Origin: a virus
Virus record (IMG/VR): IMGVR_UViG_3300044641_003388
Span: 1-28,629 of that record
Direction: 5' to 3' (one strand)
Length of the DNA: 28,629 nucleotides
Positions within the stretch are counted from its first letter, which is position 1; every line of letters begins with the position of its first letter. Of this stretch, positions 10,809-28,629 are shown in pieces. The position numbers were made by a program, and so were the translations under genes. A model generated the notes under the pieces. It saw only the letters and a list, made by a program, of their open reading frames with translations. It had not been told where the DNA came from and made no database searches.

Positions 10809-10843
10809 TTATAACCATTAATTTTTTGTTTTGGTGTTGACAT
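10802..10843 (-). CDS. Possible 13-residue leader ORF
   Basis: An ATG directly after the upstream gene's stop (in the same TTATATAATATG context as other starts here) opens a 13-codon frame, MSTPKQKINGYKC, whose stop overlaps the start of the 2OG oxygenase gene by seven bases. It could be a coupling leader or chance. There is no homology basis. Confidence 0.2.
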   Translation of the reverse strand: MSTPKQKINGYKC

Positions 10844-10844
10844 A

Positions 10845-11576: not shown

Positions 11577-11581
11577 ATATT

Positions 11582-12145: not shown

Positions 12146-12160
12146 AAAATATGTTTACAT

Positions 12161-12280
12161 TTATTGATTTGTTACTTCAGCATAAATAAGGGTTGCAACC
12201 TCTTGGATTATAGCAGCAACACTTGCGTCTGTTGTTGTATTTGTCATTACAACTTCTTGGGATAATATTTTTGGTTTCAT
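12161..12280 (-). CDS. 39-residue ORF of unknown function
   Basis: ATG at 12280 begins MKPKILSQEVV and the frame closes with TAA at 12161. A second ATG at codon 12 (12247) could also serve. It is 26 bases downstream of the ATP-grasp/Hint gene, preceded by an A/T-rich leader of repeated AAATAAA. The C-terminal half is a likely amphipathic helix (VAAIIQEVATLIYAEV). It has no cysteine. Its place between an ATP-grasp protein and an oxygenase makes a modified-peptide precursor conceivable, but it has no recognisable core, so this is only a suggestion. It fills an otherwise empty gap between tightly packed genes, which favours it being real. Confidence 0.45.
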   Translation of the reverse strand: MKPKILSQEVVMTNTTTDASVAAIIQEVATLIYAEVTNQ

Positions 12281-12306
12281 ATTTTTATTTATTTTTTTAT
12301 TTATTT

Positions 12307-13842
12307 TTATATTTTTTCTTCTCCACCACCTCCGCGACAATAAGAACAATTACCACACTCCCACCAAGAACAACCACTACCTCTCTCACACCAACCATAG
12401 CATGGGTTGTGTTGTATAAACGCCAAACCTAAAGTCTCATCTAAAACAGGTAAGAATACATCGCTTTGTTCAACATTCATATCATATACCATTCTATTTA
12501 CATAAACTACCTCTAAATTTGTTATTTTAGATTTAGTTAATGTATTATTAATATAGTCATAAAACACAATTGAGTCATTTATTCTAAAGGTATTTGTTAA
12601 TGAGTGTGTGGTGCGAAGTGTGTCAAATTCTTCAATAACCATATTACTACCGGCTAAATCTTCATATGATAAACCATTTTCTAAAGTGACTTTAATCATT
12701 AAGCATTCTTTTTGAACACCGGTTATTTCCTGAACATTTGTGGATGTTATTGTGAATCCTGTAAGATCATCCGCAAAATTACTTGAATTAACACCAGTTA
12801 AAAAATTTGGAACTCCGTCAATTATTTGATCATCAATGGGTACCCACGGAAATACTAATGTTTTTAATGTACTATTTTGTACTATTTGGCTTGGTAACAC
12901 TAAATTACCTTCACCATTTAATATTTTAGTATCATCGTCTAAAATATAAGCGTCACTACCTATTTTTGACGATTTAGTCATCCACAATACTCTAGATGGT
13001 TGTAACATTAATCCATTCGAATCATATTCTGTAGCCCATTCGTTATTTTTAACTACTGAAGTCATCATATAAGACCCTAAATGTAGGCAGCTGAGAGTTC
13101 CTCCGTATAGTATATCTAAACTTCTGATTACCCCCATCTTTTCATTAACAATATTATCTGAATGAGTGTGATACTCTTCCATGTATTCCGATTCGTCCAA
13201 TGAATTTTTTAACGATTGTAAATCTTCCAATGATGTGACTTTATAGAATTTTGGATATACAGAGATATTTGTACCTGCGTAACTGGTTTTAACAATATAG
13301 TTCGGGGTGTCCCCATTTGTAATGTGTAAATCCGTTAATTGGTCGATGTTTAAACTAGGATTCAAATCAGATGAATAAAATACATTAGGTGAATATGGTT
13401 TATCCTTAATTAATCTATGAAAGTTAACCTTATCTTTTGCATATTCCTCGTCCACAACCGCAGTGGTGTCATATGACGTTCTTATAATTAATGTATTGTC
13501 ATTATCTTCGATATATGGTACTGTTATCGAATTAAATGCCACTTTATGAAAAGTAAATGACCCACCTAAATCAGTTATAATTTCATCCATTTTATCTTTA
13601 ATACTAACATCATTAAGATTTGTACTAAACGCACCATCCTTTTCGCTGGGTAGTATGTTCCCTTCAGTCACGATGAGGTGTAAATTATTTATGGAGTTAT
13701 CTATTAAAAATTGATTAAAAGAGGTCCAATCTAAATTTGGTACAATTTTGTTGTGTATATCAACATTTGTATTTGTTTCAATTATTCTTAAATTTCCATT
13801 TGAATCTTTTAATAGATCCGTACCAATTATTACTGCTTTCAT
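12307..13842 (-). CDS. ATP-grasp-like protein with degenerate Hint domain and Cys-rich tail
   Basis: A 511-residue protein. Residues 1-290 look like an ATP-grasp-type domain: a possible acidic/Asn site IETNTNV (21-27), LIIRTSYD (118-125), a YIVKTSY lysine segment (182-188) and EKMGVIRSLD (234-243). Residues 298-479 resemble a Hint (hedgehog/intein) fold: DTKIL (304-308), KVTLENG (384-390), MVYDMNVEQSDVFL (451-464) and the closing FIQHN (475-479). The position of intein Cys1 falls on I300, so splicing or N-terminal cleavage is not expected; the C-terminal HN is kept, followed by P480 and C481. The tail 481-511 has six cysteines (481, 485, 491, 496, 499, 502) and four glycines in a row. ATP-grasp enzymes make amide or ester bonds; the substrate here is unknown. 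The ATP-grasp call is weaker than the Hint call. Confidence 0.65.
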   Translation of the reverse strand: MKAVIIGTDLLKDSNGNLRIIETNTNVDIHNKIVPNLDWTSFNQFLIDNSINNLHLIVTEGNILPSEKDGAFSTNLNDVSIKDKMDEIITDLGGSFTFHKVAFNSITVPYIEDNDNTLIIRTSYDTTAVVDEEYAKDKVNFHRLIKDKPYSPNVFYSSDLNPSLNIDQLTDLHITNGDTPNYIVKTSYAGTNISVYPKFYKVTSLEDLQSLKNSLDESEYMEEYHTHSDNIVNEKMGVIRSLDILYGGTLSCLHLGSYMMTSVVKNNEWATEYDSNGLMLQPSRVLWMTKSSKIGSDAYILDDDTKILNGEGNLVLPSQIVQNSTLKTLVFPWVPIDDQIIDGVPNFLTGVNSSNFADDLTGFTITSTNVQEITGVQKECLMIKVTLENGLSYEDLAGSNMVIEEFDTLRTTHSLTNTFRINDSIVFYDYINNTLTKSKITNLEVVYVNRMVYDMNVEQSDVFLPVLDETLGLAFIQHNPCYGWCERGSGCSWWECGNCSYCRGGGGEEKI

Positions 13843-13858
13843 TGTTATTTTTTTTTAT

Positions 13859-13866
13859 TATTTATA
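13859..13866 (-). promoter_or_regulatory. TATAAATA, possible T4-type late promoter
   Basis: The minus strand reads TATAAATA in the 40-base gap just before the ATP-grasp/Hint gene, one of the longest gaps in the accessory region. This is the T4 late-promoter -10 consensus. In DNA this AT-rich several such matches are expected by chance, and the site is nearly palindromic, so the call is weak. Confidence 0.25.
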
Positions 13867-13882
13867 TATAAATATCCTTATT

Positions 13883-14521
13883 TTAAATTAACGATGAGGT
13901 CTTCTTAACGAATTCTAGACCAACATTTCCCGCTAAAACTATCCTATCAATTGTAGAATTTGGTGCATGACTGGGGGAATGGGGGATATCTCCTTCCATA
14001 ATTATTAATTCATCTTCCTCTGGTCTAACCCAATATTCAACACCCTCTTTACTTTTAAAATACAATACCCCATCATCACCATTCATAATATCTGGCATTT
14101 GAATATAATAAACAAAGGTGAAATTGGGGTAAAACCCCTTTATTTTTTCATTAATATCCGTATGTGTATGATATCTATCAACATTTCTCCAAAATTCAGT
14201 TTGTACTGGATTTTTATGTCTAATTCGATTTACCCATGTCTCCACGTTAACTTTGTTAAAGACAACGTTGTTGTCCTCGTATATTTTTTTACACTCGTTA
14301 ATTGCTATTTGTGTAATTTCGTCCATTTTATTTTTTATGTCCAACTCACCTGACGAATTTATATTATCCACCCAATTTATAACACCAAACCCGTCTTGTT
14401 TAGACATGGGCTGGGCTTCTATAACATCATTTGCGGCTTTCAATAAAATGAGTTTATAACTTACTAAATTTAACTTTTTTTTCCAAATAAATGTAGTGTC
14501 GTCAAAGTATATTTTTTTCAT
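13883..14521 (-). CDS. Putative 2-oxoglutarate/Fe(II) oxygenase
   Basis: A 212-residue protein. Iron ligands are probably H120 and D122 in YHTHTDI (117-123), H181 in GDIPHSPSHAP, with R193 in TIDRIVLAGNV as the 2-oxoglutarate contact. The spacing fits the family, and the HTHTD motif is shared with the 187-residue oxygenase at 11582. It overlaps the upstream methyltransferase gene by four bases (ATGA) and precedes the ATP-grasp/Hint gene, so it may act with those two rather than with a sulfotransferase. Substrate unknown. It ends in -SLI, although the next gene starts 41 bases further on. Confidence 0.75.
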   Translation of the reverse strand: MKKIYFDDTTFIWKKKLNLVSYKLILLKAANDVIEAQPMSKQDGFGVINWVDNINSSGELDIKNKMDEITQIAINECKKIYEDNNVVFNKVNVETWVNRIRHKNPVQTEFWRNVDRYHTHTDINEKIKGFYPNFTFVYYIQMPDIMNGDDGVLYFKSKEGVEYWVRPEEDELIIMEGDIPHSPSHAPNSTIDRIVLAGNVGLEFVKKTSSLI

Positions 14522-15126
14522 AATAAAACCTTAGTGTCCTTTTTTTTATAAAAATTGGTACCATTAAATGTTGTATATTTCAATTCGAACTCACCGTTTA
14601 TAAAACAAATATTTTTATATGGTAGTGTTTCATATTCCACATCTGTTAATTTATATCTAACTGCGTTAAATATGTTATCAGTAACCGGAGTTTGGAAAAA
14701 ACCAACTATAGTTCCTTCTTTACAATTTGGTTTTACATAATCTAAAAATTTAGGAATATTTGGGTCTCTATGTGTATCATGTAAAATACCGTCAAATTTT
14801 GATTGTAGTGTTGGTAAAACATCAATCCAATCACCTAAAATTATTTTTACGTTTGGTTTATTCTCTGCCCATAGTAATGCATTTTTAAACATTTCAGGAT
14901 GAATTTCAATTATTGTATGTGATGTTACATTTGGATTGGACTGAACGGCGTCAGCGGACAAATGCATACCGAATCCAATTTCAAGTATATCTCCACCATT
15001 TTTCGTTACAATTTCTGCTAACTTACACATTAGAGATTTCTCCCCTATATGCATCACCCAATCTTTTTCTAAATTTGTAATTCTAATCTCATCGTTAGAT
15101 ATTATTACGTTTTCTGTTCCCTTCAT
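14518..15126 (-). CDS. SAM-dependent methyltransferase, guanidinoacetate/arginine methyltransferase-like
   Basis: A 202-residue class I methyltransferase. Motif I is EIGFGMHLSADAVQ (49-62), motif post-I is IIEIHPEMF (72-80), followed by GDWIDVLPTL (98-107) and FDGILHDT (111-118). The segments VMHIGEKSLM, LEIGFGM and FDGILHDT closely follow the guanidinoacetate N-methyltransferase / RMT2 arginine-methyltransferase pattern (W-E-x-x-M, LE-GFGM, FDGIxxDT), so a guanidino group of arginine or a related compound is a reasonable target. This is inference from motifs. It lies between the DUF2061 membrane protein and a 2OG oxygenase, overlapping the latter by four bases. Confidence 0.75.
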   Translation of the reverse strand: MKGTENVIISNDEIRITNLEKDWVMHIGEKSLMCKLAEIVTKNGGDILEIGFGMHLSADAVQSNPNVTSHTIIEIHPEMFKNALLWAENKPNVKIILGDWIDVLPTLQSKFDGILHDTHRDPNIPKFLDYVKPNCKEGTIVGFFQTPVTDNIFNAVRYKLTDVEYETLPYKNICFINGEFELKYTTFNGTNFYKKKDTKVLL

Positions 15127-15139
15127 TTATAAAATAGTT

Positions 15140-15349
15140 TTATTTTTTTAATCCGTACTTAATCCATTTATACCATACTCTTTCGTGTATATAATATTGT
15201 ATGGGTTTATATACTAATTCAGCAACACCAAAAGCGGCACCCACTTTAATATCACCACTTACCCACCACATTATAACAAACCCAATTAAGGTACTTATAA
15301 CACGATATGAGATGGTTTTGGCGATATGTCGTTTACGTTCTACTATCAT
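15140..15349 (-). CDS. DUF2061 small membrane protein
   Basis: A 69-residue protein matching DUF2061: a basic start MIVERKRHIAKTISYRVIST, a hydrophobic segment LIGFVIMWWVSG (about 21-32), KVGAAFGVAELVYKP (about 36-50) and the family-typical YYIHERVWYK (52-61). It probably has two membrane or re-entrant segments and is the only evident membrane protein in the window. DUF2061 proteins have no proven function; I recall them beside sulfate-activation genes (cysC/cysD/cysN) in bacteria such as Bacteroidota, and here one sits in a group with APS kinase and sulfotransferases. The start overlaps the preceding sulfotransferase's stop by four bases. Confidence 0.8.
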   Translation of the reverse strand: MIVERKRHIAKTISYRVISTLIGFVIMWWVSGDIKVGAAFGVAELVYKPIQYYIHERVWYKWIKYGLKK

Positions 15350-16005
15350 ATTATTTTATTATTTTTTTTATTTAATCTTACTTTATATTCTTGTGATAGA
15401 ATGTATATTTCAATTGTTTCTTTATCTGGTTTAATTCCTAAATAATCAAAAATTTCATTAATTATTCCCATATTTTTATCGATAAAAATATCTTCGTAGT
15501 AATATATTTTAAACCCATATTTTAACCCAAAATCATTCAGCATGTTTTTATTGTTTAATAAATGCTTTTTGGTGGATTTTAACAATATTTGGGGTATTTT
15601 ATCTATTTCGTAATATTTTTTTCTGTGCCACCCCAGATCTTCATTTAAATAAACATGATAAGCCATACTTTCAAGTTGTGGTTTTTCTTCTCTTCTATCT
15701 AGTAAAATAATCTTATCAAAAGTATTATATAGCCAATCGTTAAATTCTACATTTCCAACATTATCAACATTTATAAGTTCACCATCTTTTATGTTAAACC
15801 TTTCGGTTCCTTGTCCAATTAATGTTTTAATAAAGACACCTTCCTTTTTATTTATTTCTAAAAAAATATCATGTACATCATCTATTTTTTTTAATTTATG
15901 GAAAGGTTCATATACTGAATAATAAAATTTGGGTAGATGTCTATCTATACAATGAAAAAGGGATGTAGAACCACACCTACCAGAAGCTATTATACAAATT
16001 TTCAT
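15346..16005 (-). CDS. P-loop sulfotransferase
   Basis: A 219-residue sulfotransferase-superfamily protein. The 5'-phosphosulfate loop is ASGRCGSTSLF (7-17), and the 3'-phosphate segment is LLDRREEKPQLES (101-113). It is the paralogue of the 215-residue enzyme at 9640-10287, with matching EPF, FIKT, LGWHRKKYYE, IYYYEDIF and VRLNK segments, so the pair arose by duplication within this genome or its ancestors. It follows the nucleotidyltransferase with a one-base overlap and precedes the DUF2061 gene. Cytoplasmic; acceptor unknown. It ends in -KII. Confidence 0.8.
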   Translation of the reverse strand: MKICIIASGRCGSTSLFHCIDRHLPKFYYSVYEPFHKLKKIDDVHDIFLEINKKEGVFIKTLIGQGTERFNIKDGELINVDNVGNVEFNDWLYNTFDKIILLDRREEKPQLESMAYHVYLNEDLGWHRKKYYEIDKIPQILLKSTKKHLLNNKNMLNDFGLKYGFKIYYYEDIFIDKNMGIINEIFDYLGIKPDKETIEIYILSQEYKVRLNKKNNKII

Positions 16006-16382
16006 TAACCTTTATTTTTATCATAAGTAACAACACCATCGGGTGTCATGTGGCCAGTTCTTATTGCGGTACCACTAATAACAGCAATATCCGCAGGTGG
16101 TTCGTGATAAATCACATCATAACCAACCCCTCTACCATAGTTAATGCTTTCAATATCGGGAATGATTGATAAGAGAATTTTATCAAAGTTTTCATTAAAA
16201 AATGGTTCCTGTATTAACATTTGAAACACCTCTTGTGCTGTCTTTGGGTTATTTTCATCAACCTCAACGTCTCTAATTGCTACCCAAACATTCTTGCCTT
16301 GGGATAGTTGTTGGTTAATTAACCATTCGTGACCTTTATGCCAATTCTGCCAACGGCCAACGTACATTGCATACTTTTTCAT
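16005..16382 (-). CDS. Small HxGH nucleotidyltransferase-like protein
   Basis: A 125-residue protein of the HxGH nucleotidyltransferase superfamily: GRWQNWHKGHEWLI (9-22) carries HKGH at 15-18, and ISGTAIRTG (102-110) is the matching ISGTxIR motif. Members transfer AMP or CMP from a nucleotide (NMN adenylyltransferase, FAD synthetase, glycerol-phosphate cytidylyltransferase); ATP sulfurylase shares the fold and the HxGH site. It is shorter than a full NMN adenylyltransferase. Its place between APS kinase and a sulfotransferase raises the possibility that it supplies an activated sulfate or sugar precursor, but the motifs do not identify the substrate. It starts two bases after the preceding oxygenase's stop. 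Confidence 0.75.
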   Translation of the reverse strand: MKKYAMYVGRWQNWHKGHEWLINQQLSQGKNVWVAIRDVEVDENNPKTAQEVFQMLIQEPFFNENFDKILLSIIPDIESINYGRGVGYDVIYHEPPADIAVISGTAIRTGHMTPDGVVTYDKNKG

Positions 16383-16392
16383 ATTATATTAA
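16380..16392 (-). promoter_or_regulatory. TTAATATAATATG gene-junction motif (example)
   Basis: The stop of one gene and the start of the next are joined by TTAATATAATATG on the minus strand, with no purine-rich ribosome-binding site. Very similar joints occur at 20788 (TTAATATAAGATG), 10843 (TTATATAATATG), 23140 (TATATAATGAG) and 17544 (TTAATATG). It probably marks the A/T-rich initiation signal used here in place of Shine-Dalgarno. Confidence 0.35.
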
Positions 16393-16959
16393 ATTTGTTT
16401 TTTCAATTATATGGTGTTTATAAATGGGCATTACAATTGACAATCTCTCACCATTTGTAATTTCCTTTATTTCGTGCCAAATTCTACCATGATATGACAA
16501 TGCGGTTCCCGTTTGTTTAGAAATTAAAACTTCATTATCGTTATCGTCCCAACATACGTATTCCCCTCCTTCGTATGAATCACTTAATTGGATACCTAAA
16601 TTATATCTTCTTGTATCAAATCCTTTCATTAGATCTATGTGTTTTGAAAATTTGTCCCCAACACTATACTGATGTAATGTACACGATTCTACCTTATTAT
16701 TATAATTTATTCCAATATTGTTAACATCACTAAACCATTTTATTAATTTATTAAACATCCATTCTGTCTTTGATGTGTTTTCTATAACAAACACCCTATA
16801 TGATGTTTTACTATCAGTTGCAACTAATTTATTACCGTCTATAATATTAAAAAACCCTGTTGTGTTAAAATATTTACTTAATTCAGCGGGTTGTAATTTT
16901 ACATATGATTTTATTAAATCACATTCTTCTTCATTAAATAATTTTTGTTGATAGATCAT
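16384..16959 (-). CDS. 2-oxoglutarate/Fe(II) oxygenase (prolyl-4-hydroxylase-like)
   Basis: A 191-residue protein with iron ligands H107 and D109 (FSKHIDLM), H162 (RIWHEIKE) and 2-oxoglutarate-binding R172 (NGERLSIVMP). The Q97-Y98-SVGDKFSKHID stretch is typical of prolyl-4-hydroxylase-like enzymes. It overlaps APS kinase by four bases (ATGA) and is followed by the nucleotidyltransferase and then a sulfotransferase, the first of three oxygenase-then-sulfotransferase arrangements. Closest relative in the window is the 174-residue oxygenase at 10284. Substrate unknown. It ends in -NLI. Confidence 0.85.
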   Translation of the reverse strand: MIYQQKLFNEEECDLIKSYVKLQPAELSKYFNTTGFFNIIDGNKLVATDSKTSYRVFVIENTSKTEWMFNKLIKWFSDVNNIGINYNNKVESCTLHQYSVGDKFSKHIDLMKGFDTRRYNLGIQLSDSYEGGEYVCWDDNDNEVLISKQTGTALSYHGRIWHEIKEITNGERLSIVMPIYKHHIIEKTNLI

Positions 16960-17390
16960 AATGTAATTGCTTTTAATAGCTCATAGTATGAATCTGTTTC
17001 ATTTTTTGTTGTTGTGTCAATATCAATAAAGTTTTCTGTTGGTGCTTCATACTCAGCAACATGAAATGATTCACGACCTCTTGATTCAGTGGTGTGAACA
17101 TATATTTCAATAACCGAATTTTGTGATTTAAACTGATCTCTTTGGTCTTTATATGGCGCCACTAAAGACACCACAACCTCATAACCTTTATTGTGCATAA
17201 ACAATGCAATATCTTGCGCTCGTTCAATGTTTTTTCGCCTACCGGCTTCCGAATAGTCTTTGTTATTAAAGATGCTACGTAGATCATCACCATCAATGTG
17301 AATGACACGATTTTCCTGGTAATATTCTACCAAGTATTTTGCTAATGTGGTCTTACCAGCGCCTGGTTGACCCGTAAACCAATATATCAT
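16956..17390 (-). CDS. cysC: Adenylylsulfate (APS) kinase-like protein
   Basis: A 144-residue P-loop kinase. APS kinase makes PAPS, the sulfate donor for sulfotransferases, from APS and ATP. Visible are Walker A GQPGAGKTT (7-15), HIDGDDLR (31-38), YSEAGRRKNIERAQDIA (46-62), VAPYKDQRDQF (77-87) and YEAPTENFIDIDT (114-126), all in the family order. It is shorter than cellular CysC (about 200 residues) but keeps the core. I chose ATG at 17390; a TTG at 17417 would add nine residues with no support. With three sulfotransferases in the next 8 kb, PAPS supply is a coherent role. Some phage relatives may phosphorylate other small substrates. The gene overlaps the following oxygenase. Confidence 0.85.
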   Translation of the reverse strand: MIYWFTGQPGAGKTTLAKYLVEYYQENRVIHIDGDDLRSIFNNKDYSEAGRRKNIERAQDIALFMHNKGYEVVVSLVAPYKDQRDQFKSQNSVIEIYVHTTESRGRESFHVAEYEAPTENFIDIDTTTKNETDSYYELLKAITL

Positions 17391-17427
17391 ATTACTAATA
17401 TACTGAAATAATTCCAAAAAACAAATA

Positions 17428-17544
17428 TTAATGATTATAAATAAATGGGTCCTTTTTACGAAGTTCCTCTAGTTTTTTCTTGATTCTTTTCTTACGCTTA
17501 TAGTCCTCTATTTTACCTAAAAACCACTCTATTATCTTTTTCAT
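17428..17544 (-). CDS. 38-residue basic protein
   Basis: ATG at 17544 opens a frame beginning MKKIIEWFLGKIEDYKRKK and closing ...DPFIYNH with TAA at 17428. It is rich in K and R (about 14 of 38) with an amphipathic helix pattern and a DPFIY end. The ending looks like that of short conserved ORFs in marine phages, but I cannot name the family. It follows the SGNH remnant by one base, uses the same TTAATATG joint as other genes, and fills the gap before APS kinase, which supports it being translated. A nucleic-acid or membrane-surface-binding role would fit the charge but is unproven. Confidence 0.6.
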   Translation of the reverse strand: MKKIIEWFLGKIEDYKRKKRIKKKLEELRKKDPFIYNH

Positions 17545-17545
17545 A

Positions 17546-17632
17546 TTAATTTTTTTGTATATTTAGAATTATGTCTTCAAAATATTGAGCTTGTTTTTGA
17601 TGACCGACTTCTCCCATGTGTTCATTTATAAC
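17546..17632 (-). pseudogene. C-terminal remnant of an SGNH/GDSL hydrolase
   Basis: Between the carbamoyltransferase stop and the 38-residue ORF, one frame is open for 28 codons and reads NEHMGEVGHQKQAQYFEDII before ending in TAA. This resembles the last conserved block of SGNH hydrolases (D/N-x-H-x-x-x-x-G-H-x-x-x-A), as in the intact relative at 20084 (DNGFHLNSGGHKLFAENYL). There is no room for the rest of the enzyme because the carbamoyltransferase ends 11 bases before it. An internal ATG at 17617 could still give a 23-residue peptide. It is best read as the stump of a gene that was replaced. Confidence 0.5.
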
Positions 17633-17643
17633 TTACCCATAAA

Positions 17644-19311
17644 TTATTTATATATCAAATAATTACCAACAATCAATAAATCCATGTCAGTATTAAAAAA
17701 CGTTTCTATTGCATCTTTAGGGGTTAATACCATTGTTTTATCTTTGATATTAAATGATGTGTTTAATAAGATGGGATAGCCACTTAGTTTTTCAAATTCA
17801 ATCAATAAATTATAAATCAAGGTGTTCTTATAAACGGTTTGAATTCTGGCGCTACCATCTACATGGGTTACCGCAGGTAGTTTGTCACGGTATTCTGCTT
17901 TAACCTGAACAACTTGGTTCATGTATGGTACATCATCTGTCACATCAAAAAATATGTGTTGTTTGTCTTTGATAACCATCGGTGCAAAAGGTCTAAAACT
18001 TTCTCTTTTCTTTATTACCTTATTGATTCTTTCTTTCATCATTGTGTTGGTTGGATCAGCTAGTATTGACCTGTTCCCAAGAGCCCTTGAACCGAATTCA
18101 CAATGACCATTATACCACCCAATAACTTTACCTTCTCTTATCTTCTTAGCAACATTTCTTATTAGGGTTTCTTCTGAAGAAAATTTGATATGTTTATAGT
18201 TCTTAACAACATTTACAATATCATTATGAAGATACTCTGGTCCCAAAAATGGGTTTTTATTGATTCTATTTGGTAGTTTCTTATTTTTAACTAGATAATG
18301 AATACAAGCACCTATTGCTGATCCAGCATCTGATGGGGCTGGTGGTATCCATAAATTATTAAAATGTGATTGTTTAACTATCTTACCATTAGCGGTGCCA
18401 TTGTATGCACACCCACCACCTAAGCATAAGTTTCTGTTATCATTTATTAACGATATTGATTTAATCACCTCAAATAAAATCTCCTCATATCTTTTTTGAA
18501 TAGCTGCAGCAAGATCCATATGATATGACTCTATCTTAGAGTCCGGTGTTCTTGGTTCAATATTAAGTAAATCAACTAGTTTTTCATTAAACATCATTGT
18601 ATTTGACCTATCCCAACAAAAAACATCCATGTTACATGTTAGCTTACTATTTTTATAATTGATCAACTCTCTTACCTTATCGATATAAACATTTGGATTA
18701 CCATAAGACGCTAACCCCATAACTTTATATTCACCTTCGTTTGGTCTAAAGCCTAAGAACGATGTCATAGCTGAATAGTATAACCCCAATGAATGCGGAT
18801 ACTCCCCTAATGAGATATAATCAATACCTGTTTTGTCTGCTAAACCCAATGACATAGTATCCGTTTCACCAACACCGTCTATTGATAAGCAAATAGCGTT
18901 TTCAAAATTTGATGTATAGAAGGAATAATACTGATGAGATTCGTGGTGAGTTGAATAAAAAACGTTATTAGAATAAGTTGAAAGCAATTCGTTAACCTTC
19001 TTAATATTGTTTTTTATTTTAAAATAAGATTTTAAAGAGTATATAGGGTTTCTAAAAAACTGTGGTTTAACGTTATTTATAACTCGTTTTAGTTTTAGTT
19101 TAGGGTCTTCGTAATAACATATAGCCTCTATGTTATTTTTAGTCAATTTAAACTTTTTTGTTATATAATTTAAACTATTAAACGGAAAACTGTTGTCATG
19201 TTTTATTCCTGTAAACTTCTCTTCTTCACACGCATATACCAATTGACCATCTCTAAAAAGACAGGCTGATGAATCATGGTAAAATGCTGAAACCCCTAAA
19301 ATATATTTCAT
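17644..19311 (-). CDS. Carbamoyltransferase, NodU/CmcH family
   Basis: A 555-residue protein close to full family length. The N-terminal ASKHA/TsaD-like part has GVSAFYHDSSACLF (6-19), the early basic EEEKFTGIKHD, THHESHQYYSF (121-131), SIDGVGETD (143-151) and LCLGGGCAYNG (295-305). The C-terminal part has GWYNGHCEFGSRALGNRSIL, carrying the family's FG-RALG signature, and FRPFAPMV. The family transfers carbamoyl from carbamoyl phosphate to a hydroxyl on a sugar or antibiotic (as in Nod factor or cephamycin), through a carbamoyl-adenylate. All motifs look intact. It overlaps the preceding glycosyltransferase gene by four bases, which suggests that the acceptor is a glycan made nearby. This last point is inference. 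Confidence 0.9.
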   Translation of the reverse strand: MKYILGVSAFYHDSSACLFRDGQLVYACEEEKFTGIKHDNSFPFNSLNYITKKFKLTKNNIEAICYYEDPKLKLKRVINNVKPQFFRNPIYSLKSYFKIKNNIKKVNELLSTYSNNVFYSTHHESHQYYSFYTSNFENAICLSIDGVGETDTMSLGLADKTGIDYISLGEYPHSLGLYYSAMTSFLGFRPNEGEYKVMGLASYGNPNVYIDKVRELINYKNSKLTCNMDVFCWDRSNTMMFNEKLVDLLNIEPRTPDSKIESYHMDLAAAIQKRYEEILFEVIKSISLINDNRNLCLGGGCAYNGTANGKIVKQSHFNNLWIPPAPSDAGSAIGACIHYLVKNKKLPNRINKNPFLGPEYLHNDIVNVVKNYKHIKFSSEETLIRNVAKKIREGKVIGWYNGHCEFGSRALGNRSILADPTNTMMKERINKVIKKRESFRPFAPMVIKDKQHIFFDVTDDVPYMNQVVQVKAEYRDKLPAVTHVDGSARIQTVYKNTLIYNLLIEFEKLSGYPILLNTSFNIKDKTMVLTPKDAIETFFNTDMDLLIVGNYLIYK

Positions 19312-20789: not shown

Positions 20790-21860
20790 TTATATTAATT
20801 TTTTTTCCGAGTGCTCATTTAAATTATGTAATATGTGGTCATATTTTTTAATTTTTGACAATTCAATTACAAAATCATTGTACTCAGGATTAGTAGGTTC
20901 CCATATTTTCATTTCTTTATACCGTTCATCTGATATGCTTGGCCACTGAACAACTTTTTGAAATTGAATAATTTTTTCTATTGGTGAATCCTTGAATATT
21001 CTATCAATCATCTGCACAAACATTTCCATTTCTCTGAAATTATTTTGTTGCACAACAAATGAGAACATAATTCTTTTAATAGTCTTTATTGTTTTAACAA
21101 ATTCTAAATTAGCCATTAATACATCCCATTTACCACCTAATCTGGTTTTGTTTTCGTATGTATCTTTGGTGGCCGCATCAATTGAGATCTCACAGTCTTT
21201 TACATGTGGGTGAATAGCTTCCATTTGATTCCATAACTTTTCTGTCCATAATGATGCATTAGTGTGTAAAATAACACTGTCCATAACCGGAAAATCTTCA
21301 GACTTTAAATTCATTAAAAAATTTCTAATTGGAATACTATAAAAAGGATCACCACCACCACTTAAATAAATCTCTTTTAATGTTGGTCCATAATATTCCG
21401 TGATTCTATCAAGTAATTTATTTGTTCGTTCAGTCTTTTCTGGTGTGTTTGGATATAAATCAACTCTACACGTTGGGCAGCGAAAATTACATGCATCGTC
21501 TGAACATATTTTTACTCTAACTGGGCCTTTTTGATTGAACCTTTCTGGTGAATACTCACTGATTGGTCTAATGCTTCCTGCCGGCTTACCTGTATTTAAT
21601 AAGGTATTATATGCTGGACAATTTATTGGATTACAACCAACAAAATTACCACTTAAATGACCTTCTCTAACACTTTTAGCAGCATCTGATTCCCAATTTT
21701 CCATAAGGTTATCTGATACAGCAATATTAACATTATTCCAATCTGGACAACATAAATATTGTGTTTCTCTTGGTTTACCTTGACTCCAATCTCTGTGAAA
21801 CTCTGTATACAAAAATGGGTGTAAGCAGAAATAATCTTTTAAATTAACTTTCGGTTGCAT
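20790..21860 (-). CDS. Radical SAM protein with N-terminal SPASM-like cysteines
   Basis: A 356-residue protein. The cluster motif is C124, C128 and C131 (DACNFRCPTCR); the SAM-binding glycine loop is YLSGGGDPF. C12, C37, C38, C76 and C81 precede the core in the order of an auxiliary-cluster domain (FCLHPFLYTEFH, LCCPDW, GCNPINCPAY). It is a paralogue of the 343-residue protein at 8604. The ATG (21860) lies inside the end of the previous radical SAM gene, giving a 22-base overlap, so the two are strongly coupled. The substrate is unknown; peptide or protein modification is usual for such enzymes. It ends in -KLI. Confidence 0.85.
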   Translation of the reverse strand: MQPKVNLKDYFCLHPFLYTEFHRDWSQGKPRETQYLCCPDWNNVNIAVSDNLMENWESDAAKSVREGHLSGNFVGCNPINCPAYNTLLNTGKPAGSIRPISEYSPERFNQKGPVRVKICSDDACNFRCPTCRVDLYPNTPEKTERTNKLLDRITEYYGPTLKEIYLSGGGDPFYSIPIRNFLMNLKSEDFPVMDSVILHTNASLWTEKLWNQMEAIHPHVKDCEISIDAATKDTYENKTRLGGKWDVLMANLEFVKTIKTIKRIMFSFVVQQNNFREMEMFVQMIDRIFKDSPIEKIIQFQKVVQWPSISDERYKEMKIWEPTNPEYNDFVIELSKIKKYDHILHNLNEHSEKKLI

Positions 21861-23140
21861 AATCTTTTAATTGGTTCACCCATATACCATTCTTTGTAAT
21901 ATGGGAATGTTTTTATGAAGGACTCACCTCTTCCTTCGTCTTTTATTTTGGTGTGTCTTTTAAAATCTTCATATATGTCCTCTAATGGTCTACCTGGTGT
22001 TCTATCCATATATCTTTTTATGACATTATAATAGTTTTCTACATTACGGTGTTCTGGATCGTGTCTAAGTGTGTTTATGTGCTCATCCAAAATAATAACC
22101 ACATCTTCTTTCAATTCTTTTGGTAAAATATTAATGTTATAATAATCAGGAAATGTAAGTACGTTGTTCATTTGCATCATATTCAGTGGAATACCTAATT
22201 CATACATTCTATTCACGAATTTTGGTAATTCAAATATGTTAAAAATACTAACAGTTGTACTAGTCCAAACATTCATTCCGTGTTTGTGTAATCTTTGAAT
22301 ATTAGCTTCTACTGCTGACCATTTAGTTCCCTTTCTAGAATATTCTGCTACGTTACCAATGGCGTCTAAAGATGCAAATATACGAACATTATCTATATTA
22401 TCTTTAATGAATGGTTTCCATAATTTAATAAGATCCCAATTTTTAAATTTTAAACTAGTAAAGTTTGTGTTGTATCTAATTCTACACTTTGTGTTTCCAG
22501 CGGCAGCTAACTTCTCTAAAATTAAATAATGTTCATCCATAATGAATGGTTCACCACCAGCAAAATATATTTCTTCAACATCATTTATAAATCTATCAAC
22601 ATAGGACATAATATCTTCTATACTACCATCATTCATATGAACTATTGCCTGGCTTGTTGTTGAACTACCATAAAATTTTATCTGATCAGCATACCAACTA
22701 GAGCTAAGTTCTGGCCCACACATTCTACACCTTAAATTACACACATTAGAAAATCTAAAATCCCAATAATTTAATTTAAAATTATTGTCGGTACCATCTT
22801 CATCAGTTGTCTCAACTGCTTTATCTATATGGTGTGCCCATTGATTATTAGAGCTAACCCTGAATGATGGCGTGCCCATCTCTTCTTGCATATAACATCT
22901 TTTACAAACAGCTGGTTGTTCTCCTTTTAAAAACTGGGTTCTGATCTTTTTTAAATCTGGTGAGTTCCATATTTGTTCTAAGGTATGTCTCTTTAAATTA
23001 CCGATTGGGTGATTTGAATCTGCCAAACAACAAGGGAAAACGTTACCGTTTGGCCAGGTGTGTAAATGTGTCCATGGCATTATACAGAAGCTTTCACTAA
23101 CTTTGTCCCCCGCACTTTCAAATTTTGTTTTTGTACTCAT
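21839..23140 (-). CDS. Radical SAM/SPASM-type protein with reversed domain order
   Basis: A 433-residue protein. Residues 17-85 fit the SPASM domain: FCIMPWTHLHTWPNGN (18-33), PCC (C37, C38), IGNLKRHTLEQIWNS (46-60), then CKRC (C79, C82). The radical SAM core follows, with C134, C138 and C141 in VCNLRCRMCGP and FAGGEPF for SAM binding. In most SPASM enzymes the order is the other way round. SPASM enzymes such as anaerobic sulfatase-maturing enzyme and PqqE act on peptides or proteins using an auxiliary Fe-S cluster. It is the best conserved of the five here and overlaps the upstream and downstream radical SAM genes. Substrate unknown. It ends in -KLI. Confidence 0.9.
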   Translation of the reverse strand: MSTKTKFESAGDKVSESFCIMPWTHLHTWPNGNVFPCCLADSNHPIGNLKRHTLEQIWNSPDLKKIRTQFLKGEQPAVCKRCYMQEEMGTPSFRVSSNNQWAHHIDKAVETTDEDGTDNNFKLNYWDFRFSNVCNLRCRMCGPELSSSWYADQIKFYGSSTTSQAIVHMNDGSIEDIMSYVDRFINDVEEIYFAGGEPFIMDEHYLILEKLAAAGNTKCRIRYNTNFTSLKFKNWDLIKLWKPFIKDNIDNVRIFASLDAIGNVAEYSRKGTKWSAVEANIQRLHKHGMNVWTSTTVSIFNIFELPKFVNRMYELGIPLNMMQMNNVLTFPDYYNINILPKELKEDVVIILDEHINTLRHDPEHRNVENYYNVIKRYMDRTPGRPLEDIYEDFKRHTKIKDEGRGESFIKTFPYYKEWYMGEPIKRLCNRKLI

Positions 23141-24588
23141 TATATAATATTATTAGGTTTTATTCCTTTATATTCACCAATTTCATAATTGGTTATTTTA
23201 CCATCAGTTACCGATACATTTGGTATACCATGATCAACAACTATTGTATTGTACCACTCAGCTACCTCAGGAAATGTTTCACAGAAATTCTTGTTTCTTC
23301 TTTTATCATATTGAACATAGAAGCTTTTAAAATCATGAAAATGTTTTTCCATTTCATTTTCTGTTGCGATATGTCCTTTGTCCACCACTTCAATATAATC
23401 AATTACACGTTGTATTTGTGCAACCTCACCTTCATGTAATAGTTCTCTATTTTCTGGATTGGTGAACCATCCTTTTAATTTATCATGAACAAGTTGTTTT
23501 AAGTGGTCTGGTAACGATACTGGTGACATAAATGCTGGCCATCTTAGTATGTTTAAATCAACAACCAATTTATATTGGCCATATTTCTTTTTTAAACTCA
23601 TCATATCATCAAGAAACTCGGTGATACTGAATAAACATAAACTATTAATAGTCATCATAACGATCAATTGTCTACATTTAGCTTCCTCAATTATTCTAAC
23701 AACATTCTTTCTCCACACATCATATTTTAAACCATCTCTAATATATTCAGCATGTGCACCAAAAGATTCGTTTGATGTGTACAAATCAAAGTTTTTAACA
23801 TCAATCTCATGTGTCGCTTGAATTAGTTTGTCAATTAGTTTATCATCAACACCTAAATTAGAATTAACCGCCATATTCAAATTTGGCGATGGGTTTTGTT
23901 TCATAACATCAACAAAGTTCCAAAAATTAAATGATGTTGATGGCTCTCCGCCAGTAATTCTAATTTCTTGTAGTGTTTTAGATAGTTCTGGCCACCATTC
24001 CATGAATGCTTGTACATATGGGTTGTGCTCACCGTTCTTACCAAAAGCTTCTGCCCATGAGCCATCAGTATAATACGCACCAGCAGAGTTTGTTTTAAAC
24101 TTCTGGTAAGCACCATTCTCCTTGATATCTTTACCCCAAGTTGTAGAGTAACCTGAGTTACAATATGAACATGCGAAATTACATGTTCTATCAAATGAAA
24201 CTTCAACAGTCTTTAAAAGAATGTCTTGATCCCATGGAATATCTTTTAATTTAGCAATTTCATCTTCTGGATAGATAATACTTTTGAATACTCTATCAGA
24301 AACATTATTTCTACCAACATCTTCAATCTTCCAGCAATATGAACACTCGGCGGGTCTAACACCCTCAAGCATCATTTTTCTAGCCAATTTTTTTAGTTTT
24401 GTATTGTGTAATGCTGAAGGATTGGTTTTAATCTCTTCTAAATCAATTGGATGTGGTAATGGTAGGTGACATGAATTTGTATATCCATGACCAAGGTGCA
24501 AACTAGCATTATACCATTTTGCTGCACAAAATCCGCAACCTACTGAATTTAGGTGTTTTTCTCTCCATTGTATTAAGTGATCTGACAT
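23140..24588 (-). CDS. Radical SAM protein, twitch/SPASM-like
   Basis: A 482-residue protein. Cluster cysteines C136, C140 and C143 lie in TCNFACSYCNSGY, and RITGGEPS is the SAM-contact loop. N-terminal cysteines C18 and C21 (VGCGFCAAKW), C40 (SCHLPLPH), C82 and C85 (ECSYCW) probably hold an auxiliary cluster. It is a paralogue of the 455-residue enzyme at 25157 with shared GCGFC-AKW, LHNTK, DRVFKS, WWPEL, RITGGEP and YDKRR-FxxTFP. It overlaps the following SPASM gene by one base. It differs at the C-terminus by an added tail of about 30 residues. Substrate unknown. It ends in -NII. Confidence 0.88.
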   Translation of the reverse strand: MSDHLIQWREKHLNSVGCGFCAAKWYNASLHLGHGYTNSCHLPLPHPIDLEEIKTNPSALHNTKLKKLARKMMLEGVRPAECSYCWKIEDVGRNNVSDRVFKSIIYPEDEIAKLKDIPWDQDILLKTVEVSFDRTCNFACSYCNSGYSTTWGKDIKENGAYQKFKTNSAGAYYTDGSWAEAFGKNGEHNPYVQAFMEWWPELSKTLQEIRITGGEPSTSFNFWNFVDVMKQNPSPNLNMAVNSNLGVDDKLIDKLIQATHEIDVKNFDLYTSNESFGAHAEYIRDGLKYDVWRKNVVRIIEEAKCRQLIVMMTINSLCLFSITEFLDDMMSLKKKYGQYKLVVDLNILRWPAFMSPVSLPDHLKQLVHDKLKGWFTNPENRELLHEGEVAQIQRVIDYIEVVDKGHIATENEMEKHFHDFKSFYVQYDKRRNKNFCETFPEVAEWYNTIVVDHGIPNVSVTDGKITNYEIGEYKGIKPNNII

Positions 24589-24591
24589 CGG

Positions 24592-25176
24592 TTATATTTT
24601 ATGTATGAAATTGCAATTGTTAGTTAAGTCTACAAATTTATTGTGTATTATGTTATTAAAGTCATGATCACAAACCAGTTCATTTTCATGATATAACTTG
24701 AAACTATACAGATCCATGTCACATGAATTTAAGTCTGGTTCTTTCCAAGGAAACGTCTCAGATCCAAAGAAAATTTGGGGATCATTGGTGACATTAAAAT
24801 TGGATGTTGATAATACTTTTACATCATCAATATATACATTAAATTCGGTAAAATAAACGTTTTCTACCTTTAGTTTGTGCTTTTTACCAAGTTTAATTAT
24901 ATTGTATAAATCTTCGTGAACGTTATGTCTTTTTTTACCATCAGTACTCATGTGTATGGCACTTAATACATCACCATAATAGTGAAAAGCAAAGTAATTT
25001 GGGTTTATGGAAAGAATAGTTCCTCTTTCGCCATTGATTTTGTTTATTTTAAACTCTAATTCAAAATAAAAGTCATGTTTACCCGAAATTATTTGATTTG
25101 CTGGTAGATTAAAAAATGATGGGCATATTTTACTTGGCCACAAAACCCATGTTTCGTTAGTCTTTATATTTGTCAT
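24592..25176 (-). CDS. LamG/concanavalin A-like lectin-domain protein
   Basis: A 194-residue single-domain protein. The pattern fits a LamG jelly roll: FYFELEFKIN near the start, GTILSIN, a KLKVENVYFTEFNVYIDDVK hairpin and FFGSETFPW and DLYSFKLYHE near the end, where LamG domains carry the last conserved strands. I chose ATG at 25176; the frame opens with a TTG at 25185 that would add three residues. It overlaps the upstream radical SAM gene by 20 bases. It resembles the LamG domains built into the two galactosyltransferases, so it may be a glycan-binding accessory or a structural decoration protein. Which, cannot be told. Confidence 0.65.
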   Translation of the reverse strand: MTNIKTNETWVLWPSKICPSFFNLPANQIISGKHDFYFELEFKINKINGERGTILSINPNYFAFHYYGDVLSAIHMSTDGKKRHNVHEDLYNIIKLGKKHKLKVENVYFTEFNVYIDDVKVLSTSNFNVTNDPQIFFGSETFPWKEPDLNSCDMDLYSFKLYHENELVCDHDFNNIIHNKFVDLTNNCNFIHKI

Positions 25177-26524
25177 AAAAATCAATTAGTTGTGGGAATG
25201 TTTTTTTAAAATCAGTACCTCTTCGTTTATCATATTCTGTAACATATGCTACAAATTGTTTCTTTAAGTAACGATTATCTTTACTAACCACATTTGTTGC
25301 ATAATCATAGGTTCTTTTTATTTTTTGTATCTGAGTGTCCGAGAAGCCTGGACCATTTTCAATTCTACCATAGTATAGAGCCTTTTTAGCAGCTTCTAAT
25401 ATTAATCCCTTATGTTCCTCTTCAAGAATATTAATCGATAAAAATGCGGGGTATCTTAGGTATGATGTATCAAGTAATAATGCTTCACCCCAATATCGTT
25501 GTTCATTATGGAATTTCTTTTTATACTCAAAAACCTTATCCAATAAATCACCATATGTGAAAATAGATAACGCATTGAATGTGGCCATAATATTGACAAC
25601 CACCTTTGGTAATTGTTCCAGTATATCATGAATATTAACCCATAATTGATCATAATCTAAACCAAAACGAATATACTCTGCTTGTTCTTTTGACGCCTCA
25701 ACGGATGTGAAAATAACTAGCTCTCTAACTTTATTGTTCTCTGTTAAATCTTTTACAATGCTAATTAATTTATCAATAAGAGGTCTTGGTACTGATAGAT
25801 TTGTATTAATGGCTAATGATAAATTTGGATTGTCTTTCCAATTTTCTTGAATGTACTCTAACACCTTAAATGTATCATCCATCAATAATGGTTCGCCACC
25901 AGTAATTCTAAAAGTATGTAGGTCTTTGAATAGTTCTGGCCACCATTTCCAAAATGCGTCCCTGTAAGGATTATCATCAGTTAGTTTATATCTAGTGTCA
26001 ATTCTATTATCAACAAAGTCCAATGAATTGAAATCATGGTTCTTAGTATATGGGCCAAACTTTTTAATTTCCTCAACCCACTTTGAAGAGTATGGTGGGC
26101 TACAGTATGCACATTTTAAATTACAGGTGTTACCAAATGATATTTCAACATATCTTGGATTATAATCTTCTCGCCAATCTAAATCTTTGATTATATTATA
26201 CTGATCAATAGACCATGGTTCAGCAGATTTAAAAACTCTATCAGAAAAAGAATTGGATGAATTTTCTACATTCCAACAATAGTTACACTCCTCCGGTTTT
26301 TCACCAGATAACATTTCTTTTCTTTTTTGTTTCTTAAACTTGGTGTTATGTAATGCTTTTGGATTTCTAAGAACCTCATCTAATGGGATCTTATGTGGTA
26401 TTGGGTGGTGACATGAGTGTGTCGTCCCATTAAGTAAATGAATAGTAACCTGTGTCCATTTTGCTAAACAAAATCCGCAACCAACGGAATCTAACTTGTC
26501 TTTTATTTTTTTGTAATCGGACAT
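25157..26524 (-). CDS. Radical SAM protein, twitch/SPASM-like
   Basis: A 455-residue protein. Cluster cysteines C134, C138 and C141 are in TCNLKCAYCSPPY, with RITGGEPLL for SAM binding. The N-terminus has C16 and C19 (VGCGFCLAKW), C38 (SCHHPIPH), C80 and C83 (ECNYCW), as in the 482-residue paralogue immediately after the LamG gene. The two share most of their length and probably come from a duplication with a LamG gene between them. It has a one-base offset from the galactosyltransferase gene upstream (start ATG at 26524 next to its stop at 26525). Substrate unknown; peptide modification is likely from family knowledge. Confidence 0.88.
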   Translation of the reverse strand: MSDYKKIKDKLDSVGCGFCLAKWTQVTIHLLNGTTHSCHHPIPHKIPLDEVLRNPKALHNTKFKKQKRKEMLSGEKPEECNYCWNVENSSNSFSDRVFKSAEPWSIDQYNIIKDLDWREDYNPRYVEISFGNTCNLKCAYCSPPYSSKWVEEIKKFGPYTKNHDFNSLDFVDNRIDTRYKLTDDNPYRDAFWKWWPELFKDLHTFRITGGEPLLMDDTFKVLEYIQENWKDNPNLSLAINTNLSVPRPLIDKLISIVKDLTENNKVRELVIFTSVEASKEQAEYIRFGLDYDQLWVNIHDILEQLPKVVVNIMATFNALSIFTYGDLLDKVFEYKKKFHNEQRYWGEALLLDTSYLRYPAFLSINILEEEHKGLILEAAKKALYYGRIENGPGFSDTQIQKIKRTYDYATNVVSKDNRYLKKQFVAYVTEYDKRRGTDFKKTFPQLIDFYDKYKD

Positions 26525-27922
26525 CTATTTCATTTTAACATTTATAAACTTAGTGTTAGGGTATAAAGATACATCAATATTATCAATATCCAAGACATCC
26601 ATTATTTTATTTAAACCATCTTCTTTATGGTTGATTTTACCCTGTTGCATCTCGGTGACAAATCGTTTTTCATTTCTTGCTGTTGTTTCACCTTTAGCCC
26701 AACCACCATTAACGAATCCCTCATCAACATGTGGTAAACAATAGAAATTCCCTTCTCGTCTATATGGAATAATGTTTTCAATTATTTCAATATTCTCATT
26801 AGTTAGTTCAATGTTTTGTTTAAGAACCTCTTGTGCGTTAATATCTAATTCAAGCACAACGTTTTCTTTATTTTTATACATGTCCTGGATATCACCAAAG
26901 AATTTATTAAAAATTTTAAATTCAGATATCTTACCTTTAAATCTTGTATTAACGTGTGAGCAAAAACCCAATAAAAATGGTTTAATGGCATCATGTGTTT
27001 TTAATTCCTCACCAATTGGGAACGGTATATTTTGTTTTGTTCCATTCATTTGAGATACCAATTCATCATTTATGTAAAAATACATTTTCTTTTCTTCTGA
27101 ATTGTAACTTACAGTAACCTGAGTCCACATACCCTCAAACCTTTTTGCCCAGTTGTAGTGTCTCATATTTGTTCTATCAAATATGTTCATGGTGACAGCT
27201 CTGGAATTATTAAAGGATAATCCCCATGTCCAGCTACCATCTTTTCTTAATAACGGGTATTCAATGAATTGTTTGTTTTGATCTCCAACCAACCAAATTG
27301 GTACTTTATCTTCTTGTTGGTCAGCATTGAATGTCATTGTTATTGTGTGGTCATTGTGTAAGCATGAACTAATTTCTCTATTCGTTGGTACATATATTGC
27401 AGAATCATTTCCATTAAAGTTTGCTATTAATTTACCCTCTTCTGTTTTAATAACTCTACCCGTTGTCATCCCCTCAAAATAACATCTCCAAAATAAATCA
27501 TCATCTTCCTGGCCCCAATCCCAATAGTCATTTGAATAACCATTGGTCTTGTATGCTTGCTCCTTGTTAAATAAAACAACACCACCAAAGTATTGATCAT
27601 AGCCTAAACCATAATTGTATTTAGATAGTTTGGTTGCTATGTGTATAGGGGTTTCTTCTGGATAAGAATAATCCGCACCTTCACCTGATAACATATCAAC
27701 ATCATGCCAAGCGATATAATCACAACCATCCTCAAATGCATAATGTGCTGCAATATTTTTCATAGCACCTCTATTGAATAGTTTTTCATCTACCTGGTGA
27801 CCAACATAAAAAGTGTGGTCAATGCCTTGTTTATCTAGTTCCTTGCTTAAATGAGGAATTAATCTTTCAATGTGTTCTTTTCTGTTTCTATATGGTATAC
27901 AAATACCTAATTTATGTTTCAT
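26525..27922 (-). CDS. GT7 (beta-1,4-galactosyltransferase-like) with an inserted LamG domain
   Basis: A 465-residue protein. The N-terminal catalytic part (1-157) shows the GT7 motifs IPYRNR (9-14), FNRG (49-52), the metal-binding HDVD (73-76), YFGGV (111-115) and NGYSNDYWDWGQEDDD (127-142). A LamG-type domain fills about 160-380 (TMTFNADQ, WTWGLSFNNS, WTQVTVSYNSEEKKMYFYIN, FKGKISEFKIF). GT7 then resumes: CLPH (395-398, H398 in the place of the Mn-ligand His), NEKRF (417-421), EDGLNKI (434-440) and a TKFINVK end, like DGLNSL and ITVDI in animal enzymes. The family adds galactose or a related sugar to an acceptor sugar. No membrane anchor. It overlaps the paralogue upstream by four bases. Sugar and acceptor unknown. 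Confidence 0.85.
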   Translation of the reverse strand: MKHKLGICIPYRNRKEHIERLIPHLSKELDKQGIDHTFYVGHQVDEKLFNRGAMKNIAAHYAFEDGCDYIAWHDVDMLSGEGADYSYPEETPIHIATKLSKYNYGLGYDQYFGGVVLFNKEQAYKTNGYSNDYWDWGQEDDDLFWRCYFEGMTTGRVIKTEEGKLIANFNGNDSAIYVPTNREISSCLHNDHTITMTFNADQQEDKVPIWLVGDQNKQFIEYPLLRKDGSWTWGLSFNNSRAVTMNIFDRTNMRHYNWAKRFEGMWTQVTVSYNSEEKKMYFYINDELVSQMNGTKQNIPFPIGEELKTHDAIKPFLLGFCSHVNTRFKGKISEFKIFNKFFGDIQDMYKNKENVVLELDINAQEVLKQNIELTNENIEIIENIIPYRREGNFYCLPHVDEGFVNGGWAKGETTARNEKRFVTEMQQGKINHKEDGLNKIMDVLDIDNIDVSLYPNTKFINVKMK

Positions 27923-28629
27923 ATTCCTACTGTTATTTGATATATGTTTTCTTCTTTTATTATACCGTGCTCAATAAATTCTAAGGTTGATAATCCATCA
28001 TATTCAAGTAACTCATCGTTAACTGAAACTTCATTAACAAACCTAAGCTGATTCCATCTAGTCGCTTGATCTTTCCACTTATTGTTTAAAAATCCATTTG
28101 ACTCATGTATTAATGAATCAAATCTTGATGGACGTCTATATGGAATTTTAACTTCCGTAAATTCGGTGTATATACTTTTTATTATATCACAATTTTTTAT
28201 CATTCCATTGTTGTTATTCCCAGATAAGTCAATTAACTGGTAATTTTTAATGTGATCTGAATTATAATATATTTTTAAAAATGATGATAATGTTTCATCA
28301 TCAAATGTTTTCTTAAAATATTCTTTCTCGTTATTAGATATCTTTTTAATATCTTCATCACCTAGTTTTTCTTCAAAATATGCAAAAATATCTAAAGTAC
28401 CTTTAAAATAGTTTTCCATTTTTTCTCTATCCGGTTTACCAACACCAAGATAAAAATGTGGTTCCTTTCTATAGAAATATAATTTTTTAAATGTTGGTGT
28501 CTCACCAATAAATTCACCGTCCTGATATACTTTTATTATTTTTTCATCATTATCCAAAACAACGGTGATGTTTGTCTTGTAAGTTGGCTTTATTTTAGAG
28601 TTAACATAAAGGGCGTTTTTCTGACTATC
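27919..28629 (-). CDS. GT7-like protein with LamG insert, N-terminus beyond the right edge
   Basis: The frame is open from the right edge to the TGA at 27919, giving at least 236 residues; a TTG at 28557 is not a real start because clear domain sequence lies upstream of it (KTNITVVLDNDEKIIKVYQD). The visible part is the second half of a LamG domain (YFKGTLDIFAYFEEKLGDED) followed by KIPYRRPSRFDSLIH, GFLNNKW, NQLRFVNE and YDGLSTLEF, which align with the resumed GT7 end of the next gene (IPYRREGNFYCLPH, GFVNGGW, NEKRFVTE, EDGLNKI). So it is probably a tandem paralogue whose GT7 N-terminus is outside the window. If so, the His in SLIH is the metal ligand. Confidence 0.7.
   Translation of the reverse strand, partial: DSQKNALYVNSKIKPTYKTNITVVLDNDEKIIKVYQDGEFIGETPTFKKLYFYRKEPHFYLGVGKPDREKMENYFKGTLDIFAYFEEKLGDEDIKKISNNEKEYFKKTFDDETLSSFLKIYYNSDHIKNYQLIDLSGNNNNGMIKNCDIIKSIYTEFTEVKIPYRRPSRFDSLIHESNGFLNNKWKDQATRWNQLRFVNEVSVNDELLEYDGLSTLEFIEHGIIKEENIYQITVGI

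Follow-up and report, generated by a model that had tools for sequence, protein, structure and literature searches.

An uncultured virus encodes a tandem pair of beta-1,4-galactosyltransferase-type enzymes (glycosyltransferase family 7, GT7) in which a LamG/pentraxin-fold domain lies inside the catalytic domain. The pair, gene A and its upstream paralogue gene B, lies in a 28.6-kb fragment (28,629 nt; hereafter the window) of the virus IMGVR_UViG_3300044641_003388. Given this anatomy, its modelled fold, a conserved active site and the conserved pairing of the two genes, we lean towards a reading in which A and B are active metal-dependent inverting UDP-Gal transferases of the B4GALT kind that work in a phage glycan operon, with the LamG domain helping to choose the acceptor. 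Such an architecture could set which sugar chain an enzyme extends.

Three Pfam families match gene A above their cut-offs: Glyco_transf_7N at residues 2–80 (4.4e-16, 59.2 bits; cut-off 27), Glyco_transf_7C at residues 94–159 (3e-19, 68.9 bits; cut-off 23) and Laminin_G_3 at residues 171–340 (7.2e-7, 29.9 bits; cut-off 27.6). The 7C profile has 78 positions, of which 2–67 are matched in gene A and 2–77, unbroken, in the insert-free relative L237; the LamG domain therefore falls within the Pfam domain, not behind it. A sequence search of the PDB matched B4GALT1 over residues 2–156 only (E 2e-30). The remainder of the fold follows the LamG domain. Built from 21 relatives, a profile restricted to the last 82 residues found 12 PDB sequences at E <10, all of them B4GALT1, with N..RF and DGL in the correct register; each match is weak (E 0.45–1.4), and the weight of the result lies in its selectivity for B4GALT1, not in the E-values. 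The initial annotation had placed a GT7 end with a metal-place His and a DGLN motif behind the LamG sequence, and both are located there, as H398 and D435-G-L-N. Its insert also stands, with shifted boundaries: it had let the GT7 motifs stop near residue 157 and about 220 residues of LamG follow, and these limits are refined to those in the table.

Table. Features of the split-GT7 region of the window.
Feature	Position	Strand	Details
Gene A	26525-27922	-	465 aa; beta-1,4-galactosyltransferase-type (GT7), catalytic domain split by LamG/pentraxin-fold domain
GT7 first part, gene A	27461-27922	-	residues 1 to ~154; Pfam 7N/7C and PDB B4GALT1; donor site PYRNR, FNR, DVD (D74, D76); acceptor loop and Y111; Trp loop W136-G-Q-E139-D140-D-D
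LamG/pentraxin-fold insert, gene A	26762-27460	-	residues ~155-387 (~233 residues); Laminin_G_3, model, spacing
GT7 last part, gene A	26528-26761	-	residues 388-465; structural alignment to 1tvy_A and weak profile matches; strand, C395-L-P-H398, lid helix N417..R420-F421, D435-G-L-N, last strands
Gene B (upstream paralogue)	27919-28629	-	5' end cut by contig; 236 aa present
LamG remainder, gene B	28144-28629	-	
GT7 end, gene B	~27922-28143	-	
Radical SAM gene	25157-26524	-	directly downstream of the GT7 pair; Pfam Radical_SAM 3e-8
Stand-alone LamG-like ORF	24592-25185	-	two genes downstream of gene A; same operon

Structure prediction led to the same layout. An AlphaFold2 (AF2) model of gene A, built from 63 relatives, has a mean pLDDT of 91.7 and a pTM of 0.85, and VIA-align superposes it on bovine B4GALT1 (1tvy_A) at Z 27.8 and an rmsd of 1.9 Å over 215 residues, spanning model residues 1–465 and target residues 178–399. 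B4GALT1 and B4GALT7 score Z 27.8 and 26.8, respectively. The C-terminal ~80 residues, on which the initial annotation had made the claim of an insertion depend, complete a B4GALT-type GT-A fold that covers the whole catalytic domain including the lid. With Foldseek alone, the alignment was largely confined to the first 154 columns, as expected because the GT7 domain is split. The LamG part of the model (163–380) matched the PAPP-A LamG domain and pentraxins at Z 17–19.

The distance from EDDD to the lid His gives a direct measure of the insertion. It is 256 residues in gene A and about 27 in B4GALT1; among the proteins for which it was computed, it is 24–25 residues in nine insert-free phage and bacterial proteins readable by script versus 256–315 in six sampled split ones. 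Model and spacing together rule out a tail fusion, and with the Pfam break they bear out the placement of LamG within the GT7 catalytic domain. Gene A thus lacks the contiguous catalytic domain of GT7 and is a variant of the family: contiguity is usual, not catalytic, and all catalytic features are retained.

The split form is widespread in viral sequences. A first scan gave 66 loci and a profile query 539 matching stretches, of which 80 were taken on, many of them from the same contigs. Start, LamG and end occur together in 275 of 278 viral ORFs with a GT7 start, a set in which the loci of two scans overlap and the ORFs are not all independent; this recurrence rules out an assembly artefact or frame error as the source of the layout. 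When an insert-free profile served as the query of a third scan, it recovered phage GT7 genes of ~250 aa that lack the insert, as well as further split genes, including loci with three copies. Insert-free GT7 proteins (L237, L256 and L198; Pelagibacteraceae, Azospirillum) have a homologous start and end and the same motifs but no LamG domain, and a profile of the viral GT7 end finds that end directly behind the GT7 start in the Azospirillum, Pelagibacteraceae and small-phage enzymes (E down to 1e-6). The insert-free proteins of Pelagibacteraceae genomes (L087, L096–L105) are ~259 aa long and have a divergent NN(V/I)D for HDVD.

In a tree, the short forms L237, L243, L246, L256, L260 and L264 and the bacterial-bin L071 group with all split forms in a single clade (support 100/99). 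The insert label needs at least two changes on this tree, either a gain then a loss or two gains; a single clade of split proteins is not rejected (AU p 0.30). Among 39 matches in a genome collection, the split form occurs on only three contigs, L068, L069 and L070, from two draft genomes, one of Pelagibacterales and one of Flavobacteriales. The viral gene layout recurs on L068 and L069 and, less completely, on L070, which disfavours a cellular origin of the split form. These contigs are probably, from that layout, phage DNA in bins, and they hint at Pelagibacterales and Flavobacteriales as possible hosts. No cultured relative was found among 50,697 phage records (tblastn; near-identical DNA).

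Gene B shares the layout of gene A, as the initial annotation had supposed of tandem paralogues. The part of it in the window carries LamG at residues 1–94 (LAMG profile, 1e-30) and the GT7 end at 161–216 (GTC profile, 1e-25). The closest complete relative, L004:4577-6004, shares 64% identity with it across the full 236 aa; it has the GT7 start, which supports the full split layout for the cut gene. The AF2 model of this relative (pLDDT 93.9, pTM 0.89) combines a GT-A domain with LamG; it aligns with B4GALT1 end to end at Z 26.5, and its LamG domain with PAPP-A at Z up to 21.8. Genes A and B overlap by 4 bp (27919–27922) and are translationally coupled, and in relatives the overlap between consecutive split genes measures 4 bp in 128 cases and 1 bp in another 17. 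All 12 large records (160–336 kb) have two strong GT7 places side by side, and four of them have a further, weaker GT7 match elsewhere. Split-GT7 pairs are carried by large uncultured aquatic viruses, probably phages. The moraphages form a comparable lineage, likewise large and aquatic, whose core genes include glycosyltransferases (PMC12619734), and no link between them and the split-GT7 contigs could be shown.

The active site is conserved across the split. The metal in human B4GALT1 has two strong ligands, Asp250 and His343, and a weak one, Met340; galactose is held by Glu313, Arg224, Asp248 and Gly288, and UDP by Trp310, Arg187 and Phe222, with donor choice set by Tyr285 (PMC6198961). We compared 90 A and 87 B proteins with overall identities of 27–85%. 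The equivalents of human R187, F222, R224, D248, D250, Y285, G288, W310, E313, D314 and H343 are the same in 90/90 or 89/90 A and in 87/87 B proteins. In gene A numbering, D74, D76, W136, E139, D140 and H398 are invariant throughout, bar one gapped or variant A row, and the metal-site residues flank the insert, D74 and D76 before LamG and H398 after it. With next to no variation in the donor, metal and catalytic residues, A and B should both be catalytically active. The same conservation, at such low identities, makes it very improbable that the split proteins are dead enzymes, serving as lectins only or surviving as degenerate remnants, even with Met340 not kept and some residues lost in a third paralogue.

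The Met340 place holds Cys in 87 of 90 A proteins and varied residues in B. The insert-free relatives with sequences compared here lack Met as well; at this weak metal-ligand place it is seen in B4GALT1 and is not a strict feature of the GT7 family. With Met340 replaced in both A and B, metal preference may differ from that of B4GALT1. The third split paralogue, the C type, is more diverged and known from six sequences (L244:2016-3581, L239:1778-3277, L242:1793-3280 and others). Its active-site residues are partly lost, with FNY for FNR and, in two sequences, A for E; it perhaps has an altered donor or is inactive.

A and B differ systematically where the acceptor would bind. The acceptor of human B4GALT1 is held by Phe276, Tyr282, Arg355, Phe356 and Ile359, of which R355 and F356 hold its N-acetyl group (PMC6198961). 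Arg355 and Phe356 correspond to R420 and F/Y421 in the split proteins, where they are mostly kept; this mapping of lid residues comes from motif register and the model. The systematic difference between A and B lies in acceptor loop 1 and the residue before W136: the loop 1 aromatics are mostly kept in A, whereas B has other residues at the first of these places and Phe at the last. The simplest reading of these patterns is one donor, presumably UDP-Gal, with different acceptors for A and B. The differing acceptor loops, together with translational coupling, suggest that the acceptors of the two enzymes are probably consecutive or distinct ones on a single operon-made glycan.

The position of the insert bears on what the LamG domain might do. 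In human B4GALT1, concerted closure of the Trp loop (309–318) and the lid (338–365) makes the metal and acceptor sites (PMC6198961). By position mapping, the LamG domain would replace about residues 328–333, the short link from the Trp-loop helix to the lid, and would stand at Arg330, on the rim of the B4GALT1 homodimer interface (PMC6198961). Lying directly between Trp loop and lid, with the ends of the metal site on either side, LamG could be a built-in lid regulator, as alpha-lactalbumin is for B4GALT1, ligand binding driving lid closure and altering acceptor choice. We regard this as quite improbable; the insert is followed by lid residues of the usual GT7 kind, which might move on their own. 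It also seems unlikely that LamG is an internal alpha-lactalbumin in the strict sense that the lid is opened or closed by the acceptor held and LamG alone sets the acceptor.

In the reading we prefer, where LamG helps to choose the acceptor, the conserved catalytic halves would bind UDP-Gal and metal and transfer galactose. The LamG domain, anchored between Trp-loop helix and lid next to the acceptor cleft, would bind or shape the longer part of the acceptor, be it a glycan or a glycoprotein, such that only the right chain is extended. The insert satisfies both sequence and fold definitions of LamG, with Laminin_G_3 above cut-off and the PAPP-A and pentraxin matches given above for A and B, and no sugar or calcium site was identified in it. 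It also changes fast: among the closest A relatives, LamG identity is 62% versus 86% and 80% for the catalytic halves, and in the next identity band 45% versus 75% and 75%. This faster divergence may reflect a part that tracks a changing ligand; weak constraint fits it too.

LamG domains recur in the neighbourhood of the pair. The stand-alone LamG-like ORF of the window is without a Pfam LamG match by itself; by iterated search it clusters with the stand-alone LamG ORFs from relatives, one of which (in L011) matches Laminin_G_3 at 2e-8. One or two such ORFs stand at similar places in many relatives, which identifies LamG as a shared operon module. In some relatives, the radical SAM protein after the GT7 pair has an N-terminal LamG domain, as at 13–174 in L031:7425-9530 (702 aa).

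LamG/pentraxin folds often bind proteins, and the insert might be an assembly or tethering module that does not touch the acceptor sugar, uniting A and B with the radical SAM and stand-alone LamG proteins in one complex or docking them on a protein such as a tail fibre. This alternative is possible, if doubtful. It would account for LamG domains that stand alone in many loci and are fused to radical SAM in L031, and it agrees with the translational coupling of A and B and with an insert mapped to the rim of a homodimer interface. Against this, a tail fusion would suffice for tethering, which needs no insert in the catalytic domain beside the lid, and a fast-diverging LamG is as compatible with a changing ligand as with a partner.

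The genes around the pair seem to form an operon that builds a decorated glycan, which would sit on the virion or the host surface. In relatives, a GT2-type glycosyltransferase precedes the GT7 pair in 57 of 66 loci and a methyltransferase does so in 52 of 66, and some have a nucleotide-sugar epimerase or the end of a tail-fibre gene near the pair. A GT2-type glycosyltransferase and an insert-free GT7 are fused in one 679-aa viral protein (L210:2708-4744).

Lectin-bearing glycosyltransferases, to our knowledge, usually carry the lectin as a tail or front domain. In polypeptide GalNAc-transferases (GT27), which contain the Glyco_transf_7C motif region of Pfam, acceptor choice is steered by a lectin domain, a ricin trefoil attached to the C terminus as a tail. 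Their lectin is on the tail, whereas LamG lies inside the catalytic domain in the phage enzymes, an insertion that model and spacing establish and that agrees with the initial annotation's contrast to tail-fused lectins. An interplay of the GT27 lectin domain in acceptor choice is reported (PMC4432651). The LacdiNAc synthases B4GALNT3 and B4GALNT4 likewise join a non-catalytic lectin-like beta domain to a B4GALT-like enzyme, and in B4GALNT3 this PA14 domain beside the catalytic domain is needed for activity (PMC11254600). PA14 has another fold than LamG, and we take it as a precedent for an accessory-domain role, not for the position. The split proteins share with B4GALT1 and B4GALT7 (CAZy GT7) the GT-A fold over the whole catalytic domain, the motifs DVD, FNR, YFGG, WxWGxEDDD, lid His, N..RF and DGL, and the same residue roles; they differ in the LamG domain between Trp loop and lid, in Cys or another residue at the Met340 place, and in being viral proteins, known here from sequence and model, with no membrane anchor seen.

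GT7 and LamG are each known, and we could not find the arrangement of LamG within GT7 described. In the literature searched, which was of partial coverage, no paper joined LamG, galactosyltransferase and virus, or glycosyltransferase family 7 and bacteriophage. PHROGs has no family for the gene A protein and NCBIfam none of note; in BFVD, viral GT7 and viral LamG proteins are separate, with none covering both among the matches listed. The split enzymes add a large group of phage proteins that PHROGs and NCBIfam profiles miss, and their natural split and unsplit forms make accessory-domain control of acceptor choice testable.

The rest of the window holds further enzymes. Five radical SAM genes lie within 18 kb (25157-26524, 23140-24588, 21839-23140, 20790-21860 and 8604-9635), one of them with SPASM. 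A longer radical SAM protein of 940 aa in a relative (L133:5430-8249) is also matched by the stand-alone LamG search. The stretch 10284-19311 is rich in decoration enzymes: a methyltransferase and a carbamoyltransferase, two or more 2OG-Fe(II) oxygenases, an APS-kinase-like gene and a weak match to sulfotransferases. Sulfation of a glycan is possibly one of their roles. The 1864-aa protein at 2965-8559, with only sub-threshold coiled-coil-like matches and no convincing family, adjoins phrog_1417 and is possibly structural.
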